A DNA stretch of 45,034 nt from NCBI GenBank assembly GCA_023958085.1, contig JAMLGI010000015.1, positions 1 through 45,034 on the forward strand, in the 5' to 3' direction. Position numbers and translations under genes: made by a program. Below the pieces are notes generated by a model. The model was not told the DNA's origin. It ran no database searches and worked only from the letters and a program-made list of their open reading frames with translations. The stretch comes from Solirubrobacterales bacterium (GTDB lineage: Bacteria; Actinomycetota; Thermoleophilia; Solirubrobacterales; 70-9). Positions 6,281-38,545 of the stretch are shown piece by piece. How positions within the stretch are numbered: position 1 is the stretch's first letter; the number at the start of each line of letters is the position of its first letter.

Positions 6281-7537
6281 GTGTCCCTGGACCTCGCAGA
6301 AGTAAGCAAGCTTGACGTTGAGCCGGGCGAGCTGCCCGAAACGATGGCCGCCTGGGTCATCCGCCCCGAAACCGAGGGCGAACCGAAGGATGCCTTCCAG
6401 CTGGAAGAGATCGAGACCCCCGAACCCGGTGCCTTCGAGGTGATCGTCCGGGTGATGGCTGCCGGGGTCAACTTCAACAACGTGTGGGCGGCGCTGGGCA
6501 AGCCGGTTCCGGTGTGGCGCTACGGCGATCACCCCGAGTTCGGTCACCACATCGGCGGCTCGGATGCATCCGGCGTGGTCTGGAAGGTAGGCGAGGGTGT
6601 CACCCAGTGGAAGCCCGGCGACGAGGTCGTGGTCCACTGCAACCAGGCCTCCTACGAGGACGTCGAGGTTCACGGACTCGACCCTCTTGCCGCCCCGAGC
6701 CAGCGGATCTGGGGGTACGAGACCACCTGGGGCTCGTTCGCCCAGTTCACCAAGGTCCAGGCCCAGCAGCTGCTGCCGCGGCCGAAGAACCTGTCCTGGG
6801 CCGAGGCTTCCTCCTACGGTCTCACCTACTTCACCGCCTACCGCATGCTGATGGACCAGGCGAAGCTCCAGGCCGGCCACAACGTGCTGATCTGGGGCGC
6901 TGCCGGCGGGCTCGGGGTGTTTGCCACCCAGCTCTGCAAGGCGGCCGGCGCAAATGCGGTCGGTGTGGTCTCCTCGGACGAGAAGGGTGAACTGGTCAAG
7001 AAGCTCGGCGCGGTCGGCTACATCAACCGCAACGAGTTCTCCGGCATGATGCGGACCGGCAACGAGACCGCGGAAGAGGAGAAGGAGCGCTTCAAGGTGT
7101 CGCGTGCCTTCGGCAAGCGGGTCAAGGAGATTCTCGGTGACGCGCCGGACATCGTGTTCGAGCACGTCGGCCAGGCCACCTTCCCGACCTCGGTCTTCGT
7201 GGTCAAGCCGTTCGGCAAGGTCGTCATCTGTGGTGCCACCTCGGGCCACAACCTCGATTTCGACGTGCGTTATCTCTGGATGCGCCAGAAGCAGATCATC
7301 GGATCGCACTTCGCCAACGCCTACGAGTCGATGCGGGCAAATCAGCTGATGAGCGAGGGGAAGATCCGTCCGGTGCTCTGGAAGACGATGGGATTCGAGG
7401 ACATCCCCGGCGCCCACCAGATGATGCGCGAGAATCAGCATCTCGGCAAGATCGCCTGCCTGATCGGCGCGACCAGCGAAGATGAGGGTCGTGAAGAGGA
7501 AGGGCCCGGCGCAATTCACGCCGAGGTCGGCGGCTGA
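6281..7537 (+). CDS. ccr: Crotonyl-CoA carboxylase/reductase
   Basis: Key enzyme of the ethylmalonyl-CoA pathway: NADPH-dependent reductive carboxylation of crotonyl-CoA to ethylmalonyl-CoA. The 418-residue protein is an MDR-type reductase with the Rossmann segment WGAAGGLGVFATQ and the Ccr-type N-terminus (ETMAAWVIRPETEG). Positions known in Kitasatospora Ccr to hold CO2 can be matched: Asn in VNFNNVWAALGKP (about residue 66), Glu in WGYETTWGSF, and His in IGSHFAN near the C-terminus. The residue before that Glu is Tyr here, where I recall Phe in the studied enzyme. The GTG at 6281 has a GAGGAG site five bases upstream. It is followed by a small alpha/beta-barrel gene; other pathway genes lie within 11 kb. 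Confidence 0.92.
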   Translation: MSLDLAEVSKLDVEPGELPETMAAWVIRPETEGEPKDAFQLEEIETPEPGAFEVIVRVMAAGVNFNNVWAALGKPVPVWRYGDHPEFGHHIGGSDASGVVWKVGEGVTQWKPGDEVVVHCNQASYEDVEVHGLDPLAAPSQRIWGYETTWGSFAQFTKVQAQQLLPRPKNLSWAEASSYGLTYFTAYRMLMDQAKLQAGHNVLIWGAAGGLGVFATQLCKAAGANAVGVVSSDEKGELVKKLGAVGYINRNEFSGMMRTGNETAEEEKERFKVSRAFGKRVKEILGDAPDIVFEHVGQATFPTSVFVVKPFGKVVICGATSGHNLDFDVRYLWMRQKQIIGSHFANAYESMRANQLMSEGKIRPVLWKTMGFEDIPGAHQMMRENQHLGKIACLIGATSEDEGREEEGPGAIHAEVGG

Positions 7538-7571
7538 GAACCGGAACCACCCGAAACGGAGACGAAACCAG

Positions 7572-7865
7572 ATGGCACATGTATCCGAGATTTCCTGGCA
7601 CGTGACCCCCTTCCGGGCGCAGCGCTGGATCGACCGGTGGGAGCCGGCTGCCGCGAAGGCAACCGAGTACGGTGCCACCGACTGGGCGATCTACCGTTCC
7701 GAGGAGGACCCGCTGCTGTTCCGGCAGGTCAGCACCTGGGAGAACAAGAGTGACTTCGAGGCCTGGTGGTTCTCGGAGGAGGTCTCCGAGACCCGCGAGG
7801 CGGTGATCGACCTGTTCGACAAGCCGCTGCTGCCGAAATGGCTGGCCCCGGTGATCTCCGGCTAA
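7572..7865 (+). CDS. Small dimeric alpha-beta barrel-like protein
   Basis: A 97-residue soluble protein starting at ATG 7572, 34 bases after ccr and probably co-transcribed with it. The run of beta strands and helices (EISWHVTPFRAQRWIDRWEP, TDWAIYRSEEDPLLFRQVST, SDFEAWWFSEEVS) resembles ABM/EthD-type ferredoxin-like barrel proteins. No catalytic residue can be identified. Its position suggests an accessory role near the ethylmalonyl-CoA pathway but nothing in the sequence proves that. It ends just before a long perfect hairpin shared with another convergent gene junction in this window. Confidence 0.7.
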   Translation: MAHVSEISWHVTPFRAQRWIDRWEPAAAKATEYGATDWAIYRSEEDPLLFRQVSTWENKSDFEAWWFSEEVSETREAVIDLFDKPLLPKWLAPVISG

Positions 7866-7881
7866 CCCACCCAACACGCGC

Positions 7882-7926
7882 CGAGGTGTCGTTTTTCCGG
7901 CATAGTGCCGGAAAAACGACATCTCG
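7882..7926. repeat. Palindromic element, copy 1 (CCGGCATAGTGCCGG family)
   Basis: Two 21-base arms with one mismatch around a TAG centre. The left arm starts CGAGGTGTCG and continues through TTTTTCCGGCA. It lies between the convergent stops at 7865 and 7942. A nearly identical palindrome occurs at 17466-17512 in the same context. The T-run is in the 5' half of the arm, so it is not a textbook terminator. Confidence 0.85.
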
Positions 7927-7941: not shown

Positions 7942-8682
7942 TCAGAAGGGGTCGGGCATCTTCACATCGGCACTGACAAAGCTGCCCCGGGCACCGCGGG
8001 CACCGTCCTTGGAACCGATCGAGATCGTCGTGTCGCGGCCTTCGAGCTTGTAGCCGTGGTGATCGTCGAACACCGCGAGCCGCTTCCCGTTGACGATTCC
8101 GACCAGTCTTGCCGTGCTCGGCTTGAGCCGGTCGACACCGTTGTAGGCCCGGAAGGTGATCCGGTTGGCCTCACCCATCTTCCGGACAACCGACCGGTTC
8201 TTGCCGAACTTCAGGTACTTGATCTTGCCGTCGACGAGTTTCTTCCTGAGGGAGTACTGGCCGGTCCAGGGCAGCACTGCAAACTGGTAGCGGCTGCCGT
8301 CGGCGGCCTGGCGCAGGTTCACGGCGACCCAGGTGCGGCGGGCCACCTTCTTCGGGGTCTGGACAAAGAGCCGGGCGGTGATCGCAGCCTGAAGGTCACG
8401 GCCGACCACGGGGATGTTGTAAAAGCACTCCCGGGTACGCTTGCCGACCTCGACCCGCAGCGACTTGGTCGATCCCTTCCGTGAGCAGTTGGCCTTGCTG
8501 CCGAACTGGCGGATCTTGTCAACGGCATCGGGGGACCGCATGCTGTTGCTGTAGAGGGGGAGGCTGGTGACCGCACCGGCATCCCGGACGGCGAGGCCGA
8601 GTCCGGCGAGGGACAGGGCGCAGAGGGCCAGAAGGATCAGGAGAACGGGCCGAATGGCCGCTTGAGGGGTAGTGGAGCTCAT
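7942..8682 (-). CDS. Secreted or membrane-anchored hypothetical protein
   Basis: A 246-residue protein with an N-terminal hydrophobic segment (VLLILLALCALSLAGLGLAV) that is either a signal peptide or an anchor. The rest is a basic, beta-rich extracytoplasmic domain with two cysteines (NCSRKG and ECFYNIP) that could form a disulfide. I chose the ATG at 8682, directly before this segment, rather than an in-frame codon 25 residues upstream. The later part (AVNLRQAADGSRYQFAVLPW, RITFRAYNGVDRLKPS) resembles a lectin-like jelly roll, but I cannot name a family. It converges with ccr's small partner gene and is divergent from the mutase gene. Confidence 0.65.
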   Translation of the reverse strand: MSSTTPQAAIRPVLLILLALCALSLAGLGLAVRDAGAVTSLPLYSNSMRSPDAVDKIRQFGSKANCSRKGSTKSLRVEVGKRTRECFYNIPVVGRDLQAAITARLFVQTPKKVARRTWVAVNLRQAADGSRYQFAVLPWTGQYSLRKKLVDGKIKYLKFGKNRSVVRKMGEANRITFRAYNGVDRLKPSTARLVGIVNGKRLAVFDDHHGYKLEGRDTTISIGSKDGARGARGSFVSADVKMPDPF

Positions 8683-8822
8683 ATGTAGAAGCCTAAACAC
8701 CGTTTCCGGCCAAAGGGTGCGGACCGGGAAGGCGGACCGGATTGTGCGTCTGCTCACGGAAAGCTCCCGCAGGATTCCGCACCCGGCGCCGGATCATGTG
8801 GCCGACAGTTATCGTTTCCGTA

Positions 8823-16403: not shown

Positions 16404-17453
16404 TTGCGTAACCCCAGGAACTTCTTCAAGCCGATGGCGATCGGCGCCCCCGATCCGGTCACCGAGATTCCGTTCGGCCCCTCCCGGATGATCCACTTCT
16501 TCGATCCCTCGAACGAGAAGATGGCGGCCAAGGTGCCGGACATGGCCAAGCAGGCCGACATCCTGCTGGGCAACCTCGAGGACGCGGTCCCGGTCGACGC
16601 CAAGGAAGCCGCCCGGGCCGGTCTGGTCAAGGTTGCCAGGGAGGCCGACATGGGCGACACCCCGCTCTGGACCCGGATCAACTCGCTGGAGAGTCCCTGG
16701 GTCCTCGACGACCTGACCACCCTGGTCACCGAGGTCGGCAACCGGATCGACGTCGTGATGGTCCCCAAGGTCGAAGGCCCGTGGGACATCCACTACGTCG
16801 ACCAGCTCCTGGCCCAGCTCGAGGCCAAGGGAAAGGTGACCCGGCCGATCCTGATCCACGCTCTGCTGGAGACCGCCCAGGGTGTGATCAACGTCGAGGA
16901 GATCGCCGCCGCCAGCCCCCGAATGCAGGGGATGAGCTTCGGTCCGGCCGACCTCGCCGCCTCCCGCCGGATGAAGACCACCCGTGTCGGCGGTGGGCAC
17001 CCCGGTTACCGGACCATGGCCGATCCGGATGCGGACGACCCGGAGGCCCCGCGGGCGACCTTCCAGCAGGATCCGTGGCATTACTCGATCGCCCGCATGG
17101 TCGACGCCTGCACCTCGAACGACATCCTGCCGTTCTACGGACCGTACGGCGACATCAAGGATCTGGCCGGCTGTGAAACCCAGTTCCGAGCCACCTTCCT
17201 GCTCGGCTGTGTCGGCGCCTGGTCGCTCCACCCCGCCCAGATCGCGGTCGCCAAGAAGGTGTACTCACCGCCGGTGGACGAGGTGATCTTCGCCAAGAAG
17301 GTGATCGAGTCGATCCCGGATGGCCGCGGAGTCCACATGATCGACGGCAAGATGCAGGACGACGCCACCTGGAAGCAGGCCAAGGTGATGGTCGAACTGG
17401 CCGAGATGCTGGCCGCCAAGGATCCGGAGCTCAAGGAGCAGTACGGCTTCTAG
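16404..17453 (+). CDS. mcl: Malyl-CoA / beta-methylmalyl-CoA lyase (HpcH/HpaI family)
   Basis: Cleaves beta-methylmalyl-CoA to glyoxylate and propionyl-CoA, and probably condenses or cleaves malyl-CoA, in the ethylmalonyl-CoA pathway. The 349-residue protein is a CitE-like TIM barrel with [17 protein letters not shown] (metal-binding acidic cluster), [45 protein letters not shown] and [17 protein letters not shown] start at 16404 is supported by an AAGGAG four bases upstream; the next in-frame ATG is ten codons later. It stands alone, converging on trpB2 through the second copy of the palindromic element. Confidence 0.88.
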
Positions 17454-17465
17454 CCCCATCCAGAA

Positions 17466-17512
17466 CCGAGGTGTCGATTTTCCGGCATAGTGCCGGAAAA
17501 TCGACACCTCGG
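17466..17512. repeat. Palindromic element, copy 2 (CCGGCATAGTGCCGG family)
   Basis: Perfect 22-base arms around a TAG centre, the left arm beginning CCGAGGTGTCGATTTTCC. It lies between the convergent stops at 17453 and 17528 and matches copy 1 at 7882-7926 in all but a few positions. Where copy 2 differs from copy 1 at the AT-rich step, both arms change together. Confidence 0.88.
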
Positions 17513-17527
17513 CGGTCTTTTGGGGGG

Positions 17528-18892
17528 TTATGCGATCGAGGGGGCCTCGGGGAGATGCGCCAGCGCGTCTTCGAGCTCGTCCTCGGGGAGTTCGAGGTCG
17601 GTGAGCTCACCGGCCAGGAAGGCCTGGTAGGCGGACATGTCGAAGTGGCCGTGACCGGAGAGTCCGAGCAGGATCACCCGCTCCTCGCCGGCCTGCTTCG
17701 CGGCTTCGGCTTCCTCGACCACCGCGCGGATCGCGTGTGACGGCTCCGGGCCGGGGATGATCCCCTCGGTCCGGGCGAACAGCAGCGCCGCCTCGAAGGC
17801 CTGGCTCTGGAGCACGGCGGTGGCCTCGACCATGCCCTCCTTGACGAAGGCACAGAGGCTCGGGGCGTCACCGTGGTAGCGCAGCCCGCCGGAGTGAACC
17901 GGGGGCGGCACGAAGTTGTGGCCGAGCGTGTACATCGGCATCAGCGGGGTCATTCCGACCGTGTCGCCGAAGTCGTAGGCGTACCGGCCCTGGGTCAGGG
18001 TCGGGCAGGCGGCCGGCTCCGCCCCGAGGAACCGGGTGGTCCTGCCGTTGCGGATGTTCTCCCTGAGGAACGGGTTGATCAGCCCGGCGAAGTTGGAGCC
18101 ACCGCCGACACAGCCGACCACCACATCCGGGTACTCCCCGGCCATCTCCATCGCGGCGATCGCCTCTTGGCCGATCACCGTCTGGTGCAGACAGACGTGG
18201 TTCAGCACCGAGCCGAGGGCGTAGTTGGCGTTCTCGGCTCCGGCGGCAACTTCGACCGCTTCCGAGATCGCGATTCCGAGCGAGCCGCTTTCGTGGTCGG
18301 CCTGGGAGCGGCCGGCTTCGGTCAGGTTCGAGGGGCTGCGGTGGACGGTGCCACCCCAGGTCTCGATCATCGAGCGGCGGTACGGCTTCTGGTCGTAGGA
18401 GACGCCGACCATGAACACCTCGCACTCGATCCCGAACATCTGGCAGGCCATCGAGAGGGCCGAGCCCCACTGGCCGGCTCCGGTCTCGGTAACCAGCTTC
18501 TCGATTCCGGCCTCACGGTTGTAGTAGGCCTGCGCGACCGCCGAGTTCGGCTTGTGCGAGCCGGCCGGTGAGGTGCCCTCGTACTTGTAGTAGATGTGGG
18601 CGGGAGTGCCGAGCGCCTGCTCGAATCGGGTTGCACGAATCAACGGGGTCGGGCGCCAGAGTTTGTAGATCTCCCGGACCTCTTCCGGAATCTCGATCGT
18701 CGGCTCCGGCGACATCTCCTGCTCGATCAGGCTCATCGGGAAGATCGCGGAGAGATCGTCGGGGCCGGCCGGCTCACCGGTGGCCGGGCTCAGCGGCGGC
18801 AGCGGCTCACTCGGTGCGTCGGCCATGATGTTGATCCAGCTCGTCGGGATCGCGGACTCCGGCAGAAGGAACTTCTTGGTCTCCTCACTCAT
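17528..18892 (-). CDS. TrpB2-type tryptophan synthase beta-like protein
   Basis: PLP-dependent beta-replacement enzyme converting indole and serine (or a phosphoserine-like donor) to tryptophan. The 454-residue protein is longer than TrpB1 at the N-terminus and has the TrpB2 signature: [15 protein letters not shown], the PLP lysine in GSHKPNS (Lys114), [16 protein letters not shown], and the phosphate-binding [11 protein letters not shown]. The C-terminus carries the [14 protein letters not shown] block. No trpA or other trp genes adjoin it, as is common for stand-alone TrpB2, which may salvage indole. It is near the EMC genes only by position. Confidence 0.88.
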
Positions 18893-29064: not shown

Positions 29065-29838
29065 TCAGCGGTCGGCATCCGAAAGCCCGCCCCCGACCAG
29101 ATCCCGGAACCACTCCTTGAAACGGTCGGTGCGACGTCCCGGCCGGAATCGCTTCTCGGCCCGGGCCTGCTTTCCGGGGTTGCGTTCGCCGTAGCGTTTC
29201 TTGGCCCAACGTGAGTTCGGTTTGGCCAGCCGGGCGGCTCCGTAGGCACCGAACGGCCAGATGAAGAAGCCGAGCAGGGCGTGGAGGATCCGGTCCTTCA
29301 GCACACAGATCACCGCCCACCAGATGACCATCCCGGCCAGAAGGAGCGAGGCCACGAGCGCCTCCGGTGAATCCGAGACCACCTCGAACGGCCGCACCCC
29401 GAGCAGGACCATGCCGAGGAATACCGCGATGATCACGGTTGCGTCAATCGAACGACGCCCCTCCTCGCTCCAGTAGACGTCATCCAGATGGAGCCAGAGG
29501 GCGAACTCGTCGATCGTGAGCCCGATCCCGACCCCGAACCCGAACGCCGCGAAAAGCGAAAGGGCGGACTCCCCCTGGTCGGCGAATCCGAGCGCCCCGC
29601 TCAGCATCATGGTGATGATCCCGAAAACCAGGTGATGAACGTGAAGCCCGGAATCGCTGACGATGCTTCCCGGCCACCACGGGACCTTGGGACTCCGCAT
29701 CAGCCTGGTGCTCGCCCGGATTGCGATGAAAGACACCAGAAAGCCGACCAGCACCAGGAAGACCAGCTCACGCTGATGCTCGACCAGCTGGTCGTTCCAG
29801 AACTGGCTGGCCGCCGAACCGAGACTGGCCACCTTCAT
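29065..29838 (-). CDS. Integral membrane protein of unknown function
   Basis: A 257-residue protein with about six hydrophobic segments, including ELVFLVLVGFLVSFIAIRAS, HHLVFGIITMMLSGALGFAD and ATVIIAVFLGMVLLGV. A very basic cytoplasmic tail (KPNSRWAKKRYGERNPGKQA) follows. The motif SDSGLHVHHLVFGI and TIDEFALWLHLDDVYW contain several His/Asp residues that could bind metal. Its ATG overlaps the stop of the second GGDEF gene by four bases, so the two are translationally coupled. I do not recognise the family. Confidence 0.72.
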   Translation of the reverse strand: MKVASLGSAASQFWNDQLVEHQRELVFLVLVGFLVSFIAIRASTRLMRSPKVPWWPGSIVSDSGLHVHHLVFGIITMMLSGALGFADQGESALSLFAAFGFGVGIGLTIDEFALWLHLDDVYWSEEGRRSIDATVIIAVFLGMVLLGVRPFEVVSDSPEALVASLLLAGMVIWWAVICVLKDRILHALLGFFIWPFGAYGAARLAKPNSRWAKKRYGERNPGKQARAEKRFRPGRRTDRFKEWFRDLVGGGLSDADR

Positions 29839-30821
29839 CTGACACCCCCGCTGTGGATTTCAGGACGATCCCGGTCTTTCTTTCTTGCCTTCTCCGCGTA
29901 GAGCAGCCGGTCGGCACGGCCGTACATCGCGTCCAACGACTCGCCCGGCTCGGAAACCACAACGTCACCCGACCACTCCACCGGAGAGATCTCCCGAAGC
30001 CGACTGACCAGCGCCTCGACCGCTTCGAGGTCGGTTTCCGGAAAAACCACCACGAACTCGTCGCCACCGATCCGGCCGATCAGGTCTCCCGCTCGCACGT
30101 TCTCCTGCCAGACCCGGGCGAAGTCCCGCAACGCCCGATCTCCTTCGAGGTGTCCCAGACGGTCGTTGAGCCCCTTGAAGTCGTCCAGATCGACCATCAA
30201 CAGCGAAACCTGCCGGCCGCGGCCGAACCCCCGCACCCGCTCGAGTTCACGTTCGAGACCGCCCCGGTTGAGCACTCCGGTGAGCGGATCGGTCGATGCC
30301 GCGACGCGCAGGCGAGTCGAGATGCGGGTGAGGATTTCCATGGTCACCACCAGGGAGGCAGCGAAGAGAATGGTGAGTCCGCCCTCGCCTTCGACCGGAT
30401 TCACGTAGGTCGCAACCGCAAGACCAACGCAGATGTAGGCAGCGAAGGCCCGGGTGATGCCGGGCCGGAAAGCAAGCCCGGTCAGAACACAGGTCCAGAG
30501 CAGCGTGATCAGCATCAGCATCAAGGCGTTCTGATTGCTGACCTCGCCCACCCCGACCATTCCCGACCCGAGGCCGACCGCCACCACCAGGTACATGGTC
30601 CAGACCCGGAAGCGGCGAGCCAGCATCCAGCAGATCACCCCGCTCCCGGCCGTGACCACCACCGAGGCCGGGCTGGCCATGCCGTCCATCTCGAACTCCA
30701 TCGAGCCGAGCTGGACCAGGGCCGATGCGAAGCAGATCCCGGCCATCGTCCGGGGCTGCCAGATCGGCACGGTGCGTCTGAGCGAAACCGATATTTCGTC
30801 CCACCCGGGCATCGCCAGCAT
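29835..30821 (-). CDS. Membrane GGDEF diguanylate cyclase 2
   Basis: A 328-residue paralogue of the neighbouring cyclases: membrane region to about residue 165, then a GGDEF domain with [38 protein letters not shown], an I-site RAGD and active site [16 protein letters not shown]. The stop overlaps the start of the membrane protein gene. The Gly-Gly-Asp-Glu-Phe motif and metal-binding Asp residues are intact, so it should be active. Confidence 0.84.
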
Positions 30822-30847
30822 TGTCTATCAATCCGGCCCGGCCAGGG

Positions 30848-31834
30848 TCACCCCGCCGGATCTGGCCCGGCTCGCTCCCCGGACGCCTGCTTCGCCGATT
30901 TCTCCGCGTAGAGCAGCCGGTCGGCCCGGCCGATGATCGACTCGAGCGACTCTCCCGGCTCGGAAACCACAACGCCGCCCGACCACTCAACGTCCGAGAC
31001 CTCCCGCAACCGGGCAACCAGCGGCCGGGCCGCCTCGAGATCGGTCTGCGGGAACACGACCACGAACTCGTCACCTCCGATCCTTCCGATCAGGTCCCCG
31101 GACCGGACGTTGTCCCGCCACGCCCCGGCGAGCCGCTGCAGCTCGCGGTCCCCCTCGAGATGCCCGTCCCGATCGTTGATTGCCTTGAAACCGTCGAGAT
31201 CGACCATCAGCAGCGACACCCGGTCGTCACGGCGAAAGCTGCGGACGCGAAGGACCGCCCGCTCGAGTCCGTTTCGGTTCAGGAATCCGGTCAGCGAATC
31301 GGTGGTTGCCGCAAGTCGAAGACGAGTGGTCATTCGAGAAAGGATCTCCATCGTCACGAAAAAGGAGACCGCGAACAGAAGGCCGATCGCGGCACCGTAC
31401 TCGACTTCGTCCAGACCGATTCCGATCACCAGACCGAGTCCGATCAGCACCGCGTAGGTGCGGGTCACTCGTGGCGGGAAGGCCAGTCCGATCAGGATGC
31501 AGACCCAGAGCGTGGTACTCAGGTTGAGCAGCAGCGAAAGCTGGCTGCCGGCGAACACGGCGCCGGCGAATCCGGAGAGCAGGGCGATCGCGATCGCGAG
31601 GTGGACCGACCATGTCCGAAAGCGCCGGGCGAGGAGCCAGCAGGCGAGCCCGGCCCCCCACAGCAAGCCGATCACGGCGAGACGGAGAGCAAGGTCCACC
31701 TGGTCACGAACCGGAAAAATGGTGGCCAGGGCCAGCAGGCCACCGGTGGCGAAACAGATGGCCGCCACGGTCCGGGGCTGCCACAGGGGAACGATCCGGG
31801 TGCTGCCTCTCGCGGTTTGCGGGGCGTCTGTCAT
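30848..31834 (-). CDS. Membrane GGDEF diguanylate cyclase 3
   Basis: A 328-residue cyclase, closely parallel in layout to the two following genes: hydrophobic N-terminal half, then [39 protein letters not shown]-site RSGD and [16 protein letters not shown]. It is the first gene of this minus-strand set and is divergent from the DUF255 gene. The three copies probably arose by tandem duplication; the differing membrane regions suggest different inputs. Confidence 0.84.
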
Positions 31835-35430: not shown

Positions 35431-35675
35431 TCCTTCGTCTCTCTTTCGGTCGCTTGCGGGGTTAGCTGTCGGGCTCGCACTGAAAGAGCAGCGCTACCTG
35501 GCGGGTGCCAGTGATTCGCCCCAGGGACCTTGGGTCTCAATGGGTCCCCCGCTCTCCGCGATCTTGTGGCGGAGATTCAGCAGAAGGTGTCCGGAACATT
35601 AGCAGTTGTTTACAAACTGTGTGTTTTCAGTGCCGTCTAGCGCGGAGACGAAAGCGCCCCGGTACCATCCCGGTT

Positions 35676-36043
35676 GCGGGCCGGACGGCTGCGGAGGGAG
35701 AGAAACCCCTTCGAGGAAAGTCCGGACACCGCAGGGCAGGACGGTGGATAACTCCCACTCGGGGAAACCCGCAGGAAAGTGCCACAGAAACACACGGCCG
35801 ATGACGTAGAGCCACACGTGAGCTCGCGAACAGGCAAAGGTGAAAGGGTGCGGTAAGAGCGCACCGGCGTCGTGGTGACACGGCGGCCAGGTAAACCCCG
35901 TCCGGTGCAAGGCCAAACAGGATCGTCGACCCGGCCCGGCGAGATCCAGGTAGGTCGCAGGACAGCCGCAAAGGCTGCCCGCCGGTCAGATCAACCGGTG
36001 AGACAGATGGTCGTCCCCGACAGGATCCGGCTTACAGGCCCGC
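35676..36043 (+). ncRNA. rnpB: RNase P RNA, class A
   Basis: Catalytic RNA that matures tRNA 5' ends. The 5' strand GCGGGCC at 35676 pairs with GGCCCGC at 36037-36043 (helix P1). Conserved landmarks are in order: GAGGAAAGTCCGGAC, GGGCAGG, GGATAACTCCCACTCGGG-like CR regions, GTGCAAGGCCAAACAGGA, and near the 3' end GACAGGATCCGGCTTACAG. A strong terminator follows eight bases after the end. The 245 bases upstream (35431-35675) hold no gene and must carry the promoter. Confidence 0.93.
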
Positions 36044-36050
36044 TAAGGAG

Positions 36051-37026: not shown

Positions 37027-37110
37027 GCGGCTGTGGCGGAATTGGTAGACGCGCAAGCTTGAGGGGCTTGTGTCCGCAAGGACGTGGAGGTTCGACTCCT
37101 CTCAGCCGCA
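37027..37110 (+). tRNA. tRNA-Leu (anticodon GAG)
   Basis: An 84-base class II tRNA. The acceptor stem is GCGGCTG/CAGCCGC with discriminator A; no CCA is encoded. The anticodon stem-loop CAAGC-TTGAGGG-GCTTG gives anticodon GAG, and a long variable arm (TCC/GGA) marks it as leucine-type. The T-arm is GAGG-TTCGACT-CCTC. A TAGAAT at 37007-37012 is a plausible -10 element. A 47-base near-copy of its 3' end plus flank occurs at 38210, so it looks like an integration site. Confidence 0.93.
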
Positions 37111-38486: not shown

Positions 38487-38545
38487 GGCCGGCCATCGAG
38501 GGGAGACCTTTCGGACTATGTAGCTGACAGGTCTCCCCTCGATGG
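38487..38545. repeat. GGCCGGC repeat relative, copy G (diverged)
   Basis: Starts GGCCGGCCATC like the others but contains a 17-bp perfect hairpin CCATCGAGGGGAGACCT with its complement around a 19-base loop, and lacks the GAGTT bulge. Leader is CCACAGCTTCGTGACTGACA. It is a diverged or truncated member. Confidence 0.6.

Follow-up and report, generated by a model that had tools for sequence, protein, structure and literature searches.

Dispersed palindromes at gene ends of a Solirubrobacterales genome and their association with bracketed DUF559 nuclease genes

Two palindromes between convergent genes

The window, i.e. the whole stretch of DNA analysed here (45,034 nucleotides), is contig C15 of a Solirubrobacterales metagenome-assembled genome (MAG; G000, 2.44 Mb in 31 contigs, 95% complete), and the elements under study are two long palindromes, each of which separates the ends of two convergent genes. 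Both belong to a palindrome family dispersed through this genome (family 1), and palindromes of this kind are associated with genes for DUF559 proteins. It seems fairly probable that the two palindromes of the window represent solitary copies of a short palindromic repeat that looks mobile and has a DUF559 nuclease as its cognate gene product. The features at the two junctions are as follows.

7482..7865, + strand: gene upstream of copy 1, with a weak match to antibiotic biosynthesis monooxygenase (ABM, E 1.8e-4, just below the cut-off)
7882..7926, no strand: palindrome copy 1, solitary, family 1 (covariance model R1, E 2.7e-15; itself a member of R1)
7942..8757, - strand: convergent gene beyond copy 1, no family match
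16404..17453, + strand: HpcH/HpaI aldolase, CitE-like lyase gene upstream of copy 2
17466..17512, no strand: palindrome copy 2, solitary, family 1 (R1, E 6.3e-16; itself a member of R1)
17528..18892, - strand: TrpB-like pyridoxal-phosphate enzyme gene beyond copy 2 (NF009057, above the cut-off)

The best named relatives of the CitE-like protein are 85-91% identical and come from MAGs labelled Solirubrobacterales, Thermoleophilia or Actinomycetota, so that the host is most likely an uncultured member of the Solirubrobacterales. Copy 1 is 45 bp long, with 21-nt arms that flank a TAG and match throughout except at the fifth pair, where G faces T; copy 2, of 47 bp, has perfect arms of 22 nt. With a match counted as +1 and a mismatch as -2, the copies scored 18 and 22, respectively, well above anything in 20 sequences simulated for the window with a first-order Markov model, whose best palindromes scored no more than 12. 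A first-pass annotation had described near-identical palindromes with arms of 21-22 around TAG at two convergent gene ends, and a compensatory change at the A/T step between them; all of this holds. Its distances to the stop codons (13-17 and 15-16) were off by at most 1 nt: copy 1 begins 16 nt past the + strand stop (TAA) and copy 2 12 nt past it, while both lie 15 nt ahead of the - strand stop. It placed the T-run 5' of the GC stem, which is correct for the inner stem; the element is in fact a single long hairpin with two GC-rich stems, and the A/T stretch is what separates them. A reading as an RNA element was rejected, as there was no Rfam match at the copies and no excess covariation in the family. 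In relatives (27 of 80 loci), the place that corresponds to the copy-2 junction had no palindrome that matches; the gene next to it, judged by length and distance only, was unlike the TrpB-like one, so that these loci do not serve as an orthologous comparison.

Covariance model R1 places family 1 at 15 sites in the genome, 12 of them strong and three weak; the model was built from 11 copies, which are recovered by construction. A half-site search that allowed up to three mismatches gave 15 matches, all at family palindromes, compared with none for a reversed control pattern. The consensus is CCRCCGAGGTGTCG-N5-CCGGCATAGTGCCGG-N5-CGACACCTCGGYGG, and the elements measure 42-52 bp. The core CCGGCATAGTGCCGG, whose occurrences the first-pass annotation had proposed to count, is present without mismatch in 6 of the 15 copies. 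Two stems are conserved, CCGAGGTGTCG on the outside and CCGGCAT on the inside; between them lie 5 variable, A/T-rich positions that often fail to pair. Covariation in the family was not above that of shuffled alignments, and the middle 5 bp did not covary; thus, it is the sequence of both arms that is the conserved feature of family 1.

DUF559 genes between direct palindrome pairs

Two strong copies on contig C7 (87838-87893 and 88939-88994) bracket a single open reading frame (ORF; about 87897-88967) as direct repeats that are identical at 48 of 51 positions, and the ORF takes its stop codon from the second palindrome, in the form of the TAG in the loop. It encodes a DUF559 protein (E 7e-10), a Vsr-like nuclease. 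Among the 18 genomes of the genus, PF04480 gave 54 matches in 15; four of these were not fetched and two lacked an ORF, so that 48 were examined, 46 of them with enough flank. A direct flanking repeat scoring at least 20 was found at 20 of these 46 DUF559 genes, compared to 2 of 298 control genes (Fisher p 8.8e-18, a value that overstates independence, because some of the 46 genes are mutual orthologs). The control set had initially held three such genes out of 299, one being the own DUF559 gene, which was removed. One of the remaining two is explained by a tandem repeat of two GGDEF-like paralogs (window 29834-31834 around the gene at 29835-30821; domain assigned by eye).

The bracketing repeats are 36-51 nt long and mostly palindromic, and their sequence differs between gene lineages. 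The upstream repeat mostly lies 78-215 nt ahead of the called start (extremes, 8 and 328 nt), and the downstream repeat between 53 nt before and 114 nt after the end of the stop codon. In all 20 bracketed genes the direct score exceeded the inverted score. Across the phylum, the DUF559 domain occurred in 29 of 60 sampled genomes and a bracketing repeat at 5 of 23 testable loci, a count in which one of the five (G181) is a 155-bp repeat that is not clearly a palindrome, and in a sample where the ORF frame of G167 is unlike a DUF559 protein. Two further DUF559 genes of the own genome (G000:C29:7476-7751 and C7:49172-49462; L319 and L294), whose proteins are 94% identical, have an upstream palindrome that differs from family 1 (CTGGAGCCGATTGTGG...), with solitary copies at L183:3076 and L202:9614.

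Solitary palindromes can be compared with the bracketing ones. In about 1.16 Mb from six genomes there were 27 long palindromes, 12 of which matched a DUF559-bracketing palindrome with a score of at least 20. The own genome, G010 and G003 (845 kb) contributed 24, with 10 matching, in a set where the own stretches were partly chosen for their copies and both window copies are among the matches; G013, G015 and G007 (315 kb) contributed three, two of them matching. For 11 of the 12 the best match was in the same genome; the exception, L323:16728 of G010, matched best in G013 (24), and the named G010 palindrome scored 21. No long palindrome was found in 305 kb of G016, G008 and G004, genomes with no PF04480 match. 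Moreover, the palindromes of DUF559 protein pairs with more than 60% identity had a mean similarity of 0.53, as opposed to 0.16-0.18 below that level.

The window contains a further long palindrome at 38493-38545 (CCATCGAGGGGAGACC...GGTCTCCCCTCGATGG), for which none of the DUF559-bracketing palindromes is a match. Judged by eye, it is similar to an imperfect 60-bp palindrome that flanks a TetR-like gene of the own genome (stretch L192) as a direct repeat. Elsewhere in the window, close to one another, lie a c-di-AMP riboswitch (35436-35592, - strand), an RNase P RNA (35673-36050, + strand) and a tRNA (37027-37110, + strand).

DUF559/MTES_1575 matches, profile and structural comparison indicate that the DUF559 proteins have the nuclease fold of the Vsr type, and its acidic and histidine residues are conserved. 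A D, an E-x-D, an H and the following D are kept in 56-57 of 58 aligned proteins. A 12-protein profile matched structures 3hrl (E 6.8e-11) and 3r3p, a "Mobile intron protein" (E 0.0016), both over the nuclease part. A fold model of a named relative (L142) was poor (mean pLDDT 43.9), with nuclease blocks mostly at 56-82; Foldseek ranked 3r3p (I-Bth0305I) first (E 2.2e-3, probability 1.00), and no match reached E <=0.001. The N-terminal part resembles AbiEi weakly, with AbiEi_4 at E 1e-4 to 3e-4 in two of eight proteins and AbiEi_1 at 0.005 in one. I-Bth0305I is described in PMC3943268 as dimerising on a target of nearly 60 bp, and an AbiEi antitoxin is reported in PMC7319586 to bind inverted repeats for autoregulation.

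Placement, inheritance and possible origins of the palindromes

The majority of the 15 family-1 copies are close to a stop codon, and five of the 12 strong ones, both window copies included, lie between convergent genes; the convergent share of intergenic bases is 10.1% (445 kb). These placements rest on a home-made gene caller that misses short genes and misplaces starts, and 8 of the 20 own-genome stretches were picked for holding copies. Outside the window the copies are distributed as follows.

C7:100950: strong copy, between convergent genes
C12:16986: strong copy, between convergent genes, the second with a low coding score
C1:266122: strong copy, between convergent genes, one of which (MetE-like) has its stop codon within the palindrome
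C10:17870: strong copy, 22 nt past a stop, the other side unclear
C17 and C20: strong copies, between tandem genes
C2: strong copy, between divergent genes
C7:87838 and C7:88939: strong copies, bracketing one gene
C19 (6467-6522): strong copy, inside a gene
C1:424648: weak copy, immediately past a stop
C6: weak copy, 58 nt past a stop
C16: weak copy, between tandem genes

The copy at C19:6467-6522 (L068:1501-1556) is in frame within a gene for a DnaE2-like error-prone polymerase (NF004225, E 1.9e-221, with a score below the cut-off over the truncated ORF), where it encodes STEMRLIRHSAGFPSSRCE. Genes of this type were matched in 16 of the 18 genus genomes, the own one included, and in all 15 sister genes the palindrome is absent and a variable linker occupies the spot. 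In-frame insertion in coding genes thus applies to 1 of the 15 own copies, and in addition to one orthologous group of a sister family.

That sister family, GTGGGTCGG-N4-CCGG-N8-CCGG-N4-CCGACCCAC, occurs in four sister species; of 121 genomes from the order, 4 contain it in exact form. A DUF559-like gene of G010, found by its similarity to the own one and with a weak MTES_1575 match, has GTGGGTCGG palindrome doublets on both sides, with spacers of 26-31 bp. Between orthologous GTGGGTCGG copies, all 34 arm bases were identical in three comparisons and 32 of the 34 in another two, where G011 shows one compensatory pair; the loops, by contrast, kept 3-6 of 8 bases and the flanks about 72-88%. One such orthologous group lies in frame within a methylase-like gene. 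Around L323:16728 (G010:C11, about 616700), a MITE-like (miniature inverted-repeat transposable element) repeat of 200-230 bp that holds a GTGGGTCGG palindrome recurs at several places in G010 with 77-84% identity.

At one convergent junction common to most of the genus, G010 has a palindrome that matches its DUF559 gene L287, G001 and G004 have other, unrelated palindromes, and in the own genome an imperfect one, missed by the finder, is visible by eye. The finder gave no palindrome at this junction in nine sister species (G011, G007, G014, G005, G002, G017, G003, G008 and G016); the comparison leaves out G015, G006, G009 and a piece of G013, for which the left anchor failed.

The association of palindrome and DUF559 gene is direct observation, and cutting and movement by the nuclease are what we infer from it. 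In the mechanism that we propose, the AbiEi-like N-terminal part would bind the palindrome as a dimer, and the C-terminal part, similar to Vsr and I-Bth0305I, would nick or cut the palindrome or its hairpin or cruciform. Repair from another copy might then spread the palindrome, and sometimes the gene as well. Recombination between the two direct repeats could also delete the gene, with a single palindrome remaining in its place. Entry into a palindrome-free site may follow hairpin or single-strand routes. Insertion at a gene end would be tolerated because it falls beyond the stop codon, and an open frame through the palindrome would permit rare in-frame insertions. Two palindromes and the gene that they bracket have the look of minimal selfish DNA of a new kind, and not that of a specialised transcription stop. 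More tentatively, the Actinomycetota may harbor a whole class of such elements. In each, a private palindrome of 40-60 bp would stand in direct orientation on either side of a single AbiEi-DUF559 nuclease gene, and the nuclease would recognise and cut that palindrome and so spread solitary copies to gene ends, and rarely in frame into genes; this would be a second, independently evolved solution of the type represented by repetitive extragenic palindromes (REPs) and REP-associated tyrosine transposases (RAYTs), but based on direct repeats and an enzyme of the homing-endonuclease type in place of the RAYT transposase. Of the options that the first-pass annotation had left side by side, a mobile palindrome inserting at gene ends is the one favored by the 15 copies, the bracketed nuclease gene, the occupied and empty orthologous junctions and the in-frame insertion.

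Several observations weigh against this proposal. At the threshold used, 26 of the 46 DUF559 genes have no palindrome pair, and 15 of the 27 long palindromes match no bracketing one. DUF559-rich G013 had no palindrome in the 104 kb sampled, and G004, with no PF04480 match (92% complete), still has a long palindrome at the compared junction. The second control gene above threshold, a TetR-like one by eye in the own stretch L192, has a real 60-bp direct repeat. Proteins and palindromes correlate only weakly in a Mantel test (rho 0.15; 8 of 2000 permutations), and the closest pairs carry the signal. Neither a target-site duplication nor a base-level empty site was seen at the junction, where alignments are too diverged to place boundaries. 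Finally, the conservation of arms across species could reflect host function rather than mobility.

In one rival reading, the host maintains the palindromes as sites for a DNA-binding protein, in chromosome organisation or regulation, and the DUF559/AbiEi-like protein is a regulator that binds its own flanks. Identical arms (34 of 34) beside drifting loops and flanks, the lack of covariation in the middle 5 bp and the reported binding of inverted repeats by an AbiEi antitoxin (PMC7319586) all suit it. The second repeat lies at or past the stop codon, however, and the conserved nuclease active site, the unrelated or missing palindromes at one junction across species and the in-frame copy within a coding gene also argue against it, leaving it a small chance of being correct. 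The protein-binding-site option of the first-pass annotation fits in part, inasmuch as the cognate DUF559 protein is the presumed binder. Quite unlikely, in our view, is a bidirectional terminator shared by convergent genes, in which the hairpin would halt RNA polymerase from both sides and would have been copied because it is functional. At least five of the 12 strong copies stand at convergent ends, against the 10.1% of intergenic bases, and copies are often flanked by C-rich and G-rich DNA (by eye), both of which speak for such a role. Nonetheless, a T-run of four or more is present at only 4 of the 30 hairpin ends of the 15 copies, other copies lie between divergent genes or in frame within the polymerase and methylase-like genes, nine sister species lack a palindrome at the junction filled in G010, and a terminator would need no private match to a nuclease gene. 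A special bidirectional transcript end, another option of the earlier annotation, is accordingly not retained as the reason for the element; the palindromes may have a side effect on termination. By eye, C-rich tracts often follow gene ends on both strands at convergent junctions of the own and sister genomes (e.g. 7866-7881 and 17513-17527 in the window), and the palindromes therefore often lie between C-rich and G-rich arms; the tracts are possibly Rho sites or older hairpins.

A classical REP moved by a RAYT (Y1 tyrosine) transposase, with the DUF559 gene as a chance neighbor, would account for a palindromic family that is dispersed and mostly outside genes, and the GTGGGTCGG doublets with their 26-31 bp spacers recall REPINs. 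It is nevertheless highly improbable: Y1_Tnp (PF01797) has no match in the own genome and is present in 1 of the 18 genus genomes, G004, which had no R1 match; there is no GTAG tag; and the bracketing of DUF559 genes (20 of 46) is far above the control. For the own genome, a RAYT-driven REP is largely refuted, the missing 5% apart. Four other candidates were set aside. An uptake sequence was rejected, since no solitary half-sites occur except one two-mismatch match at C14. For a phage origin, exact half-sites are found in 14 viral contigs, none with the second arm following (by eye), and for carriage on plasmids, two DUF559 proteins gave no tblastn match. Mycobacterial TRIT terminators were dropped, as the host is not a mycobacterium.

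Relation to known palindromic repeats and nucleases

A search of titles and the beginnings of abstracts, with most subscription literature outside its range, found no work linking DUF559 to palindromic repeats; PMC12907096 concerns a Vsr-like protein of Caulobacter, and its text does not contain "palindrom". DUF559 is still named "of unknown function" in Pfam, and the private palindrome beside many of its genes offers an immediate, testable substrate. If the Actinomycetota do harbor the class of selfish elements suggested above, this would provide a guide for what to seek in palindromic families with no known transposase.

Homing endonucleases of the EDxHD type resemble the present proteins in that I-Bth0305I is the closest solved homing enzyme by profile and the first by fold, and in that its target of nearly 60 bp, as given in PMC3943268, is similar in length to the palindromes. 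The DUF559 genes differ in lying, as far as seen, in no intron or intein, and in having a weak AbiEi-like N-terminus, a palindromic repeat on either side and numerous solitary copies. MITEs and remnants of the solo long terminal repeat (LTR) type are likewise non-coding and derive from the ends of an element that carries a gene; here, however, the end is itself a complete palindrome and the ends are direct. No target-site duplication was seen in the junction alignments, which are too diverged to place boundaries. Rickettsia palindromic elements (RPEs) and CGTC REPs share with family 1 the occurrence of palindromes in frame within protein genes. RPEs measure about 150 bp according to PMC10969869, compared to 45-52 bp here, and the present palindromes lack a CGTC tag and have a candidate dedicated enzyme. 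CGTC repeats, some RPEs included, are described in PMC3733652 as having no dedicated transposase, an open point for which the DUF559 nucleases represent a candidate enzyme class. The same paper reports that many in-gene REPs lie in replication and repair genes, and here, too, a palindrome has been written into a repair polymerase.

The closest parallel is with REPs, RAYTs and REPINs. Both systems consist of short, dispersed intergenic palindromes, with several families per genome and an enzyme gene bracketed by two copies; in both the palindrome sequence changes with the enzyme lineage, and one family here forms doublets. The enzyme here is a DUF559/Vsr-like nuclease, however, and not a Y1 HUH transposase. 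The bracketing copies are direct (20 of 20), whereas RAYT genes are reported to be bracketed by two inverted REPs (PMC2817692), and by eye neither a GTAG nor a CGTC tag is present in the flanks of the 11-copy alignment. The copy number is 15, in contrast to usually more than 100 REPs per genome (PMC2817692), and the length is 42-52 bp, in contrast to the 20-40 bp given for REPs in PMC3733652. The palindrome/DUF559 system is REP-like in organisation, but it is not a member of the REP/RAYT group.
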